Assembly (NCBI RefSeq): GCF_001536285.1
Contig: NZ_FAOZ01000007.1
Coordinates: 75,360 to 139,359 of the forward strand
Origin: Parafrankia irregularis
GTDB lineage: Bacteria; Actinomycetota; Actinomycetes; Frankiales; Frankiaceae
Direction of reading: 5' to 3'
DNA: 64,000 nt
Positions within the stretch are counted from its first letter, which is position 1; the number at the start of each line of letters is the position of its first letter. Below are positions 28,861 to 32,678 of the stretch, piece after piece. Under the pieces are notes generated by a model that was not told the origin of the DNA, ran no database searches, and saw only the letters and a program-made list of their open reading frames with translations. The position numbers were made by a program, and so were the translations under genes.

Positions 28861-28898
28861 GTCCGGTCAGGCCTGGTACGTCCGGTCAGGCCTGGTAC
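28861..28898. repeat. 19-bp tandem duplication at the NDH-2 3' end
   Basis: gtccggtcaggcctggtac occurs twice head to tail. The second copy contains the NDH-2 stop codon and its last residues, so the duplication did not change the protein. Confidence 0.85.
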
Positions 28899-30337
28899 AG
28901 CTCGGTCTGCTCGACCTGGGCGATCGTCGCGTGCGGCGGCGGCAGGAAACCGAGCTGCACCGTCCGCGGTTTCATCAGGGCACCGAGGATCCAGTCCGCG
29001 GCGACGTAGGCTCGGTTGGTGCCCGCCTTCAGCGCGAGCAGATGGTAGGCGCGGGTGACCACCGCCGCCGGCACGCCCGAAAGGCGCAGGCCCAGCGGGT
29101 TGGCGACGGCGTCGGCCCCGCCGAGGTCGACGACGAATCCCAGGTCACGGTGATGGTAGGGGCGCATCGCCCCGTAGCCCAGTGACGCCGCGATGTTGCG
29201 GCCCGCCGCCGTGCCCTGCCGCACGGCGTTCTGCGCGGTCTGTCCCGCGGGGACACCGCCCCGGGTCGAGTCGGGTACGGCCGCCGCGTCGCCCAGGGCG
29301 AACACTCCGGCGTGGCCCGGCACCCGGAACCGTTCGTCGACGACCAGCCGCCCCCGCACGGTCTCCGCGCCGAACGAGCTCACCAGCGGGTTCGGGGTCA
29401 CACCCGCGCACCAGACCAGGGTGTGGGTCGGGATGATCTCGCCGCTGGTGAGCGTGACGGAGTCGGGGCGCACCTGCTGGACCGACGTCTTCAGCCGGAC
29501 CTCCACCCCCCGCTCCCGCAGCACCCGGGACGCCCCGATACCGAGGTGTTCGTCCAGCTCGGGCAGCACCTTCGGGGCGAGGTCGAGCAACAGCCAGCGG
29601 ACCTGGTCGGACCGCAGCCGCGGGAACTGCGCCAGCGCCTTCATGGTGAACCGCCGCATCTGCGCCGCCAGCTCCGTGCCGGTGTACCCGGCGCCGACGA
29701 CGACGAAGGTGCAGTGCGCCCGGCGTTCGGCCTCGTGCACGGCCGCGTCGGCGTAGGCCATCTGGCGCAGCACGTGGTCACGAAGGAAGACCGCCTCCGC
29801 GAGGTTCTTCATCCCCAGGCCGAACTCGGCCAGGCCGGGGATGTCGAACGTCCGCGTGTGCGCCCCGGGCGCGAGGACCAGCCTGTCCCAGGCCAGGGTG
29901 AACGGGACGCCGGCTCGGCTCAGGACGGTGACGTTGCGCGCGGTGGGATCGATCTCGGTCACATGCCCCAGATGCGACACGGTGCGGCGCAACGTCCCGC
30001 GGACGGAGACCGCGAGGTGGCGTGGCTCGATGTCGCCGGCGGCCACCTGCGGAAGCAGCGACGTGTAGAGCAGATGATCCACGGGGGAGACGAGCGCGAG
30101 GTCCGCGGCGTGGGCCGGCAGCCGCGCCTCCAGGTACTGCAGCACGCCGAGCCCGGCGTAGCCGCTGCCGACCACGATCACCTTGGGCCGTCGCCGTCCG
30201 TCCCCGATCAGATCGGCCGACGTCAACGCCCTCGGCCGCAGCACCGGCGCCTCCTTGGGCGGCGCGTTCTCGGGACCGGCGTGGCGCCACTGCTCGGTCC
30301 GGCGGACGAGGCGGGCGATGGTCGGCGAGTTCTTCAT
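28886..30337 (-). CDS. Type II NADH dehydrogenase / NAD(P)/FAD-dependent oxidoreductase
   Basis: A 483-residue single-subunit NADH:quinone oxidoreductase that feeds electrons to menaquinone without pumping protons. Two dinucleotide folds are visible: VVGSGYAGLGVL near residue 55 for FAD and VVGAGYTGTELAAQM near residue 215 for NADH. The C-terminal FAD motif is FALGDAAAVP, and the quinone-side AGQTAQNAVRQG follows. The tail (RAYHLLALKAG, then LGALM) is the usual membrane-binding amphipathic region. The start ATG 30337 has AGGAG seven bases upstream; the frame upstream is open but not conserved-looking. Single gene, divergent from the RiPP-like peptide. Confidence 0.88.
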   Translation of the reverse strand: MKNSPTIARLVRRTEQWRHAGPENAPPKEAPVLRPRALTSADLIGDGRRRPKVIVVGSGYAGLGVLQYLEARLPAHAADLALVSPVDHLLYTSLLPQVAAGDIEPRHLAVSVRGTLRRTVSHLGHVTEIDPTARNVTVLSRAGVPFTLAWDRLVLAPGAHTRTFDIPGLAEFGLGMKNLAEAVFLRDHVLRQMAYADAAVHEAERRAHCTFVVVGAGYTGTELAAQMRRFTMKALAQFPRLRSDQVRWLLLDLAPKVLPELDEHLGIGASRVLRERGVEVRLKTSVQQVRPDSVTLTSGEIIPTHTLVWCAGVTPNPLVSSFGAETVRGRLVVDERFRVPGHAGVFALGDAAAVPDSTRGGVPAGQTAQNAVRQGTAAGRNIAASLGYGAMRPYHHRDLGFVVDLGGADAVANPLGLRLSGVPAAVVTRAYHLLALKAGTNRAYVAADWILGALMKPRTVQLGFLPPPHATIAQVEQTELYQA

Positions 30338-30691
30338 CTGCGTACTCCTGACCCCGCGGCCACCGCAGCGGCGCCGACGCGGGCATGGCAAGGGCACGGG
30401 TCGTGTAGTCCGGCGTACCGCTGCGCGGTCCCTCCCAACCGGGCCGCGGCGGACGTGTGGTGAGCGCATGGTGGCTGAACCGTCACTGAACCGGTGCGGG
30501 GCACGATGAAGCTCGGACGGGTGCTCCCATCTGCCTGACGCCGATGGGCCAGGCGGATGGACGGATTGTCCGGCAGATCCGCGCCGGACGAGGCGCGCTC
30601 GGACAGCCGGACCAGGCCGGCAGCCGGATCGACTCGGCAGCCGGACCAACAGGAGCCGGACGCACGAGAGCTCGGACGGAAGGGGTAGGTC
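30338..30691. other. Intergenic region, 354 bp, leader of the RiPP-like gene
   Basis: GC-rich region between divergent genes. Bases 30600-30665 contain degenerate repeats of a cagccgga unit. No consensus promoter can be read with confidence. Confidence 0.35.
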
Positions 30692-30883
30692 ATGAAGGCC
30701 AGGTACGAAGCGCCCGCGATTGCACCTCAGGGCTCGTTCCGGGACGTCACCCGGGGAGTCTTCGTGTTCGTCGGTGGCGGCGGTGGTTGGGGCTGGGGCC
30801 GCAGCTGGGGTTGGGGCTGGGGCGGTGGCTGGGGTTGGGGCTGGGGTGGCGGCTGGGGCTGGGGCGGTGGCTGGGGCTGGTGA
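30692..30883 (+). CDS. RiPP precursor-like peptide: lasso-type leader with Trp/Gly-repeat core
   Basis: A 63-residue peptide, ATG preceded by GGAAGGGG at a good distance. The leader matches the lasso-peptide recognition pattern Y-x2-P-x-(L/I)-x3-G-x-F-x3-T at every position: Tyr5, Pro8, Ile10, Gly14, Phe16, Thr20. In lasso precursors the conserved Thr is second to last in the leader, which would put cleavage after Arg21 and Gly22 first in the core. The 42-residue core begins GVFVFVGGGGG and then alternates Trp and Gly (12 Trp, with a single Arg-Ser break). It has no Asp or Glu at core positions 7-9, or anywhere, so the usual lasso macrolactam cannot form. No B/C lasso enzymes lie nearby. An FAD hydroxylase follows on the same strand. 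Confidence 0.75.
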   Translation: MKARYEAPAIAPQGSFRDVTRGVFVFVGGGGGWGWGRSWGWGWGGGWGWGWGGGWGWGGGWGW

Positions 30884-30935
30884 GCTCCGAATCCGCAACC
30901 GTGACCGCCACTCGCCCGAGGAAGTGAGTGAGTCC

Positions 30936-30953
30936 CGGGGCCACTGAGCCCCG
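30936..30953 (+). terminator. Hairpin after the RiPP-like gene
   Basis: CGGGGC and GCCCCG pair perfectly around a six-base loop 53 bp past the peptide stop. It may be a terminator or attenuator separating the peptide from the downstream monooxygenase. Confidence 0.4.
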
Positions 30954-30984
30954 CGGCGGGTCCCAGCCCGGGTAACCCGCTCCT

Positions 30985-31025
30985 GGTCGTGCAGGTCGGT
31001 GGACCTTCCTCCGAGCTGCACGACC
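30985..31025 (+). promoter_or_regulatory. Long RNA-type hairpin in the leader of the monooxygenase gene
   Basis: GGTCGTGCAG (30985-30994) pairs perfectly with CTGCACGACC (31016-31025). After one G-G mismatch, TCGG/CCGA (30996-30999 / 31011-31014) extends the stem, leaving an 11-base loop. It is too well paired to be chance in a non-coding stretch. It could be an attenuator, a processing site or a protein-binding site. Confidence 0.5.
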
Positions 31026-31115: not shown

Positions 31116-32678
31116 GTGAGGATCGTCTGTGTGGGTGCGGGGCCGGCCGGGCTTTACTTCGCGATCTCCGCGAAACGCCGCGACGCCGGCCACGAGATCA
31201 CCGTCATCGACCGGGACCCGCCGGGCGCCACCTACGGCTGGGGGGTCGTCTACTGGGACAACCTGCTCGACGTCCTGTTCCGCAACGACCCGGTGAGCGC
31301 GCGGGAGATCCGCGCGGCGTCGACCCTGTGGCAGGAGCAGGACATCAGCCTGGGGCCCGGCCGGGTCGCGCACTTCGCCGGGTACGGGTTCAGCGTGCAG
31401 CGCGCGGCCCTGCTCGACATCCTCACCCGGCGGGCGATCGAGCTGGGGATCCGTGTCGAGCATGGCCGTGACGTCAGCGACCTGGCCGACCTGGCGGCGC
31501 TGGGCTGGCGCGGTGGAGCTGGCACTCGACCCGGGGACGAGGCGCGTCCCACCCCGGATCTCGTCGTCGGCGCGGACGGTGCGAACAGCCGGGTGCGATC
31601 GATGTTCGACGGCCAGTTCGGCACCTCGACGGACGTCGGGGGCAACCAGTACATCTGGCTTGGCACGCGCCGACACTTCGACCGGTTCACGTTCGCGTTC
31701 GAACGCACCCCGTCCGGCTGGGTGTGGTTCCACGCCTACCCCTCCGGCGCGGACGTGAGCACCTGCATCGTCGAGTGCTCGCCGAAGACCTGGGAACGGC
31801 TCGGTTTCGCCATCTCGTCGGGCCCGGAGATGCTGCGGACCCTGAGCGACATCTTCGCGGTGCCGCTCGGCGGGCACGGCCTGACCGACAACCCGCGCCG
31901 GCCGGCACGCTGGCAGCGGTTCACGCAGGTCAGGAACCAGCACTGGTCGGTGGGCAACACGGTGCTCCTCGGCGATGCCGCGCACACGACGCATTTCACC
32001 CTCGGCTCGGGCACGACGCTGGCGATGATCGACGGGGTCATGCTCGCGCAGATGCTCCACGAGCACGGCGAGGTCGCCCCGGCGCTCGCGCAGTTCGACC
32101 ACGAGGGCCACGCGGCCCTCGAACCGCTGCAGGCCAGGGCGCGGACCAGCATGTCCTGGTTCGAACGGGTGGACGCACTGCTCGACCGGGAGGCGGTGGG
32201 TGCGACGGGGGCCGACCCGGTCGAGTTCGCGTACGCGATGGCGACCCGCCAGAGCGACCAGCCGCCGTGGAGCTACCAGGCGCATCGGGCGATGCAGGTC
32301 CCGGCGCTGCGACGGGCCCGCCGCGTGCTCGACACGTCGTTGCGGTGGTACCTGGCCCGCCGCCGCGGTGAGCCGGCCCGCCTCGCCGCGGGGCCCTTCG
32401 GCCCGGCCGCCATCCCTGCCGATTCCGCTACCCGTGCCGACTCCGCTACCCGTGCGGACTCGGCCACCCGTGCGGACTCGGCCGCCCGCGCCGAGGCCCC
32501 CGCCGTCACCCGCACGAACACCGACGCGGGGCGTGGTCCCGGGGGCGAGCCGGCGCCGGCCGGGTCAGCGGCCGGCAGCGCTGGCGGGGACGGCGGAAGC
32601 GGCGGAAGCCGCGGCTTCGAAAAGGTCAGTCAGCCTGCCAGAACAGGGGGACCTGGCGCCCGCTCTGCGGGGTCGTGA
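31116..32678 (+). CDS. FAD-dependent monooxygenase (aromatic/tryptophan hydroxylase type)
   Basis: A 520-residue group A flavoprotein hydroxylase. FAD motif VGAGPAGLYFAI at residues 6-17, the GVVYWDNLL signature of the salicylyl-CoA/tryptophan hydroxylase branch, DG motif VVGADGANSRVRS, and GDAAHTTHFTLGSGTTLAMID for FAD ribityl binding. The GTG at 31116 follows a GGGGG ribosome site; the longer open frame upstream runs through the hairpin and repeats. The last 70 residues are low-complexity, including four copies of an 18-bp repeat, and overlap the convergent HAF gene by 53 bp. Relatives hydroxylate indole, tryptophan or aryl-CoA rings, so action on the Trp-rich peptide next door is an attractive but unproven idea. 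Confidence 0.85.
   Translation: MRIVCVGAGPAGLYFAISAKRRDAGHEITVIDRDPPGATYGWGVVYWDNLLDVLFRNDPVSAREIRAASTLWQEQDISLGPGRVAHFAGYGFSVQRAALLDILTRRAIELGIRVEHGRDVSDLADLAALGWRGGAGTRPGDEARPTPDLVVGADGANSRVRSMFDGQFGTSTDVGGNQYIWLGTRRHFDRFTFAFERTPSGWVWFHAYPSGADVSTCIVECSPKTWERLGFAISSGPEMLRTLSDIFAVPLGGHGLTDNPRRPARWQRFTQVRNQHWSVGNTVLLGDAAHTTHFTLGSGTTLAMIDGVMLAQMLHEHGEVAPALAQFDHEGHAALEPLQARARTSMSWFERVDALLDREAVGATGADPVEFAYAMATRQSDQPPWSYQAHRAMQVPALRRARRVLDTSLRWYLARRRGEPARLAAGPFGPAAIPADSATRADSATRADSATRADSAARAEAPAVTRTNTDAGRGPGGEPAPAGSAAGSAGGDGGSGGSRGFEKVSQPARTGGPGARSAGS
32421..32492. repeat. Four in-frame 18-bp tandem repeats
   Basis: Four copies of a gactccgctacccgtgcc-like unit encode (ADSATR)n near the C-terminus of the monooxygenase. 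They do not interrupt the frame. Confidence 0.85.

Follow-up and report, generated by a model that had tools for sequence, protein, structure and literature searches.

The DNA analysed here, referred to as the window, is a stretch of 64,000 nucleotides of Parafrankia irregularis, a soil bacterium of the Frankia group, located on contig C7 of the host genome. It contains a short gene coding for a Trp/Gly-rich (WG) peptide, which is followed on the same strand by the gene of a FAD monooxygenase (F1). The features of the region are these:

28886 to 30337, minus strand: divergent gene of an NAD(P)H-dehydrogenase-like flavoprotein (Pyr_redox_2), a flank of the Parafrankia loci only
30678 to 30685, plus strand: Shine-Dalgarno-like GGAAGGGG, upstream of the precursor ATG
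30692 to 30883, plus strand: WG precursor gene, 63 aa, translated as MKARYEAPAIAPQGSFRDVTRGVFVFVGGGGGWGWGRSWGWGWGGGWGWGWGGGWGWGGGWGW and a stop codon
30692 to 30754, plus strand: lasso-type leader, residues 1-21 (Y5, P8, I10, G14, F16, T20), from the motif and curated models
30755 to 30880, plus strand: core, residues 22-63, with 12 Trp and no Asp or Glu, from the translation
30985 to 31025, plus strand: hairpin GGTCGTGCAG...CTGCACGACC separating the precursor from F1, conserved among the Parafrankia orthologues
31116 to 32678, plus strand: F1, a FAD monooxygenase of the VioD/salicylyl-CoA-5-hydroxylase type, the partner of the precursor

A first, sequence-only reading had described this open reading frame as a perfect lasso leader fused to a core unable to form a ring. 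The fit of six leader positions to the lasso pattern was confirmed, with Ile10 occupying the Leu position, and the leader passed the cut-offs of both NCBIfam NF033521 (lasso_leader_L3; 23.7 bits, cut-off 19) and Pfam DUF5972 (24.6 bits, cut-off 22.6). The core beginning at Gly22, with 12 Trp in 42 residues and neither Asp nor Glu, was likewise borne out by translation. The strict six-position pattern occurred once in the six frames of the 64-kb window, whereas 60 simulated sequences of 64 kb did not contain it, which argues against a chance match. Between the window and four more distant Parafrankia the leader has diverged mainly by synonymous changes (pS 0.53-0.75 versus pN 0.12-0.15), and the 23 Gly codons of the core are GGC, GGT or GGA, without a single GGG. 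The prevalence of synonymous changes and the avoidance of GGG mark 30692-30883 as a real gene, to judge by its sequence a RiPP-type precursor. Most WG orthologues have GGAGGA at the position of the Shine-Dalgarno-like element. Since the lasso rule puts Thr at -2, the leader peptidase (B2) is predicted to cut after Arg21. The divergent flavoprotein gene is probably no part of the system. Its mechanical ORF (28886-31021, minus strand, likely start at 30337) runs antisense across the precursor, and automatic annotation may therefore hide the small gene.

The distribution of the family was examined in 395 genomes of the class, 35 from Frankiaceae and 360 from elsewhere. The homologues with a conserved leader that were searched for do exist: the union of two profile searches placed the family in 24 of the 35 Frankiaceae genomes (the WG profile search matched 23 of these 35). 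A wider profile matched 23 of the 395 genomes, every one of them Frankiaceae, with no member in the 360 others; given a non-Frankiaceae sample of that size, rare members outside the family are possible. WG genes were found in three genera, g1 (Parafrankia), g2 and g7, and in all six Parafrankia genomes, several of which carry a second copy. The second precursor of the host genome is MKDRYAAPSIRAQGYFRDVTGTFFWGWRHGWGGWGWRHGWGGWGGWGRHGGWGW (L188, G000:C19:143734-143895), and it has no adjoining F1. In the six Parafrankia genomes, all the leaders above the NF033521 cut-off belong to WG precursors. Across 22 aligned members Tyr5, Pro8, Gly14, Phe16 and Thr20 are invariant and the leader consensus is YEAPALQxQGSFRxxTG. 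The cores of the family contain on average 26% Trp and 56% Gly.

The core in the window is a simple repeat, the lengths vary among species and the copies are scattered through the genomes, features that would suit a relic leader, the gene now encoding a non-RiPP glycine-rich protein or a decoy for the lasso leader peptidase. We regard this as improbable. The constraint falls on the leader and not on the core, the invariant Thr20 is close to the cut site, and B2 is kept in all 24 genomes with WG precursors.

Lasso B2 genes occur twice in the host genome, on contigs C18 and C33 and not in the window, which agrees with what had been stated. At C18 the order is SARP/BTAD regulator - B1 - B2 - ABC exporter. 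B1 is an RRE (PqqD-like) scoring 111 bits against NF033530 (cut-off 70), with TfuB1 (6jx3) as its nearest solved structure, so that the RRE-type protein searched for in the genome was found. B2 is a transglutaminase-like leader peptidase with 108 bits against NF033537 (cut-off 33). No lasso precursor pattern was found at the C18 locus of the host genome. The arrangement is kept in the six Parafrankia genomes (the ABC gene is uncompared in G004, where the contig ends after B2), and at this locus the cyclase is absent from all six. A tblastn search with the sister-genus cyclase had no match anywhere in these genomes; a divergent cyclase belonging to the C33 cluster could have escaped it. Of the lasso B1, B2 and C genes sought elsewhere in the genome, the first two were therefore located and the sister-genus type of cyclase was not. 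The need for an RRE and a protease acting in trans is supported by this cyclase-less B1-B2-ABC operon. Purifying selection acts on B1, B2 and the ABC exporter in Parafrankia: in comparisons of the more distant species, B2 has a pS of 0.33-0.42 and a pN of 0.06-0.11. All 26 genomes in the comparison retain the Cys and His motifs of B2, GC[LVI]PR and HAWVE. C33 holds a separate lasso-type cluster (L015, G000:C33) with an ABC transporter, B1, B2, an HPr-kinase-like gene and a short leader-bearing ORF of its own, reading ...RRPYERPSMTDYGSLARRTADIGPLLIFDLIVFADQVS. The B1/B2 of this cluster could act on the WG precursor in place of the C18 pair.

A way to understand the incomplete operon is to look at the orthologous locus in g2 and g7, where the lasso cluster is complete, in the order regulator - A - C - B1 - B2 - ABC. 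The precursors inside these clusters read leader-GRWGWGRDWLWRSF or close to it, with cores of the type GRWGWGRD..., and all 10 have Asp at core position 8. A long Gly-rich C-terminal extension, e.g., PRYYGGGGGAIIIVGGGG, is seen in several of them (L133, L135, L136, L137, L139, L142), beginning after a lasso core of 14-15 residues. The WG precursors have both the WGWG motif of the lasso ring and the aliphatic-plus-Gly5 stretch of the lasso tail, in keeping with an origin by duplication of a lasso precursor; we infer such an origin from these shared segments. B1-B2 have been kept without the cyclase in Parafrankia, in g7 genomes G029 and G032 and in g6 genomes G024 and G026. G029 and G032 are without both A and C and still have B1-B2 and WG precursors. 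By this genomic comparison, Parafrankia has lost the lasso precursor and the cyclase from an otherwise complete cluster, and a gene hidden by draft assembly is unlikely because six genomes agree. The sequence-only reading, correct as to the leader and the missing ring, had missed both this loss in the host lineage and the Frankiaceae-wide multigene family. The g6 genomes (L127, L129, L130, L131) have leader-bearing precursors with Tyr/Arg-rich cores adjoining B1-B2. Acid and cyclase are both missing in G026; G022 has a cyclase and no acid at 7-9, and G024 acids and no cyclase.

If the gene encoded a genuine lasso precursor whose ring closes in an unusual way, the fit of the leader and of Gly1 would be explained, and the in-cluster lasso cores of the sister genera share GxWGWG with it. 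Such a precursor is nevertheless very improbable: none of 33 WG members has Asp or Glu at core position 7-9 and the cyclase of the cluster is missing from the Parafrankia genomes. With the ring acid and this cyclase both missing, we rejected a lasso peptide as the WG product. The earlier statements that a classical macrolactam is impossible and that the leader is reused for another product class gain support accordingly.

The gene directly downstream of the precursor had gone unnoticed in that reading, right as it was in outline, in spite of lying within the window and being genetically coupled to the precursor. F1 starts 232 bp past the precursor stop codon. Its family is the commonest neighbour of the fetched WG loci (15 loci), always downstream and on the same strand. 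A class-wide search found F1 in 23 Frankiaceae genomes, and a precursor lay directly upstream of it, on the same strand, in all 18 readable loci of the three genera. In G007, G009 and G034 the contig ends at the precursor site, and in G033 the upstream region is a garbled G-tract ending in codons for GWGGGW and a stop. Within the WG-linked F1 clade g1, g2 and g7 are each monophyletic. G019 has a divergent homologue that branches outside this clade and no WG gene, and seven homologues from outside the family are also without one; a tie of the F1 superfamily as a whole to WG genes was thus rejected. So was the presence of F1 beside every WG gene, several copies, including that on C19, having no adjoining F1. 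These copies either stay unmodified or are acted on by F1 in trans.

The surroundings of the pair change from genus to genus. In Parafrankia it is flanked by NDH-2, response regulator and luciferase-like genes, in g2 by genes of the aminotransferase and OYE types, and in g7 by a PSP1-type gene set and regulator genes. At L172, L174 and L177 of g2 the pair is convergent to a large OYE/NADH:flavin oxidoreductase-type ORF, near a PLP aminotransferase. A gene pair retained amid changing surroundings is the usual mark of a common pathway, and the constancy of WG-F1 between varying flanks is therefore a sign that the two share one. The hairpin at 30985-31025 shows a paired change to GGCC/GGCC in G002 and no T-run after it. 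Its role may be in attenuation or mRNA processing; an Rfam search of the precursor-F1 region gave no family match.

F1 was assigned to the FAD_binding_3 monooxygenases, and its best solved relatives are the VioD indole hydroxylases (E 6.5e-35). It is well under the cut-offs of the NCBIfam models, with 159 bits against the VioD model NF053547 (cut-off 620) and 320 bits against its best model, NF006101 (salicylyl-CoA 5-hydroxylase/oxidoreductase; cut-off 1078), the latter match covering only profile positions 1-361 of 768. Since the N-terminal half of salicylyl-CoA 5-hydroxylase gives F1 a better score than VioD does, the substrate of F1 could be a thioester. The AlphaFold prediction for F1, built on five close sequences, was too poor for use (pLDDT 32).

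This resemblance to salicylyl-CoA 5-hydroxylase speaks for a further explanation, in which WG is a plain secreted peptide, structural or antimicrobial, from which B1/B2 do no more than take off the leader; the ABC transporter would export it and F1 would be a neighbour with a metabolic role of its own. The several WG genes lacking F1 alongside agree with it, as do the luciferase-like monooxygenase and SDR genes downstream of F1 in Parafrankia, reminiscent of a catabolic cluster. However, g2 and g7 are without these neighbours, and the constant element is the WG-F1 pair, present in 18 of 18 readable loci. We consider this explanation unlikely, though less so than the other two.

The explanation that we prefer, at a probability of roughly 0.6, is that the WG gene encodes the precursor of a lasso-derived but linear RiPP, handled by B1/B2 in trans, oxidised at Trp by F1 and exported by the ABC transporter. 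B1 would bind the YxxPxI leader in trans and present the precursor; F1 would then hydroxylate the indole rings of the core Trp residues, perhaps while the precursor is bound to B1, as CanE does with CanB1; B2 would cleave after Thr20-Arg21; and the transporter would release a linear, oxidised Trp/Gly-rich peptide. There are precedents for several of these steps. The actinobacterial RRE FusB1 binds non-cognate YxxP leaders (PMC13381572), CanB1 boosts the tailoring hydroxylase CanE on the canucin precursor (PMC9266682), the LPPs of Bacillota are cyclase-less linear RiPPs with lasso-like leaders (PMC13381572), and RES-701-4 bears 7-hydroxy-Trp, the responsible enzyme being unproven (PMC7280977; PMC9266682). 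The preferred model is favoured by the membership of the leader in its family, by WG genes in every Parafrankia genome with B2 in all WG genomes, by the conserved cyclase-less locus under purifying selection and the similar state of G029 and G032, and by the pairing with F1 despite differing flanks, with VioD as best solved relative. It is weakened by the F1 scores far below both NCBIfam cut-offs, by WG genes without F1 and F1 homologues without WG, and by the B1/B2 of C33. Gene anatomy, conservation, linkage and losses are read directly from the genomes, and on them the earlier guess of a hydroxylated Trp-rich peptide gains support, the chemistry and bioactivity of the product being our deduction. 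Once secreted, the product might act on membranes, or form a hydroxyindole polymer that is adhesive or resembles a pigment.

Compared with known systems, the WG precursor has the leader motif, the Thr at -2 and the Gly as first core residue of lasso peptides, the RRE, leader peptidase and ABC exporter of the host are of lasso type, and sister genera have a full lasso cluster at the orthologous locus. The WG system differs in lacking the ring-forming acid, in the absence of the cluster's cyclase from the genome, in the distance of the precursor from B1/B2, in its long Trp/Gly repeat core and in its FAD monooxygenase partner. With the LPPs it shares a probably linear product, a YxxP lasso-like leader, a discrete RRE, an MsbA-like exporter and the absence of a cyclase, whereas the LPPs have a signal-peptidase-I-like leader peptidase and an HprK-like kinase (PMC13381572) and the WG system keeps a lasso B2 and has a FAD monooxygenase, F1 being the only neighbour of WG genes found to recur; the WG consensus does not match the LPP leader motif YxxPxVLxHQxIxFETxxS (PMC13381572). 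Canucin A and RES-701-4 also derive from hydroxylated lasso-type precursors, at Trp in RES-701-4, but both are cyclised lassos in which one residue alone is modified, and CanE is an iron/2-oxoglutarate enzyme and ResE, proposed for RES-701-4, is described as a hypothetical protein, while F1 is of the FAD type. F1 aligns with VioD and salicylyl-CoA 5-hydroxylase along the catalytic domain of their common FAD monooxygenase superfamily, differing from both in its low NCBIfam scores and its pairing with a peptide gene, and from the latter in having no C-terminal half.

We class the system as a variant of lasso-type RiPPs and not as a lasso peptide; the product seems to be a linear modified peptide of a kind not yet described. 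We see an even chance that the system forms a separate RiPP class, in which a VioD-like flavin monooxygenase and trans-acting lasso B1/B2 yield linear Trp/Gly peptides with several hydroxylated indoles, after repeated loss of the cyclase. Titles and opening abstracts of the literature on Frankia and lasso peptides contained no link to the WG family, nor did the literature found on the DUF5972 leader family, on VioD and RRE or on Trp hydroxylation mention it. Should the core be the substrate of F1, this enzyme would be a flavin monooxygenase hydroxylating Trp repeatedly in a ribosomal peptide, of which the literature searched held no example. The Frankiaceae offer a natural test of one RiPP class turning into another: within one family, intact lasso clusters can be set against others that have lost cyclase and precursor, and against scattered precursors with the same leader and no ring acid. 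The model predicts products of nitrogen-fixing plant symbionts that cluster-based mining would miss, because the precursor is far from B1 and B2.
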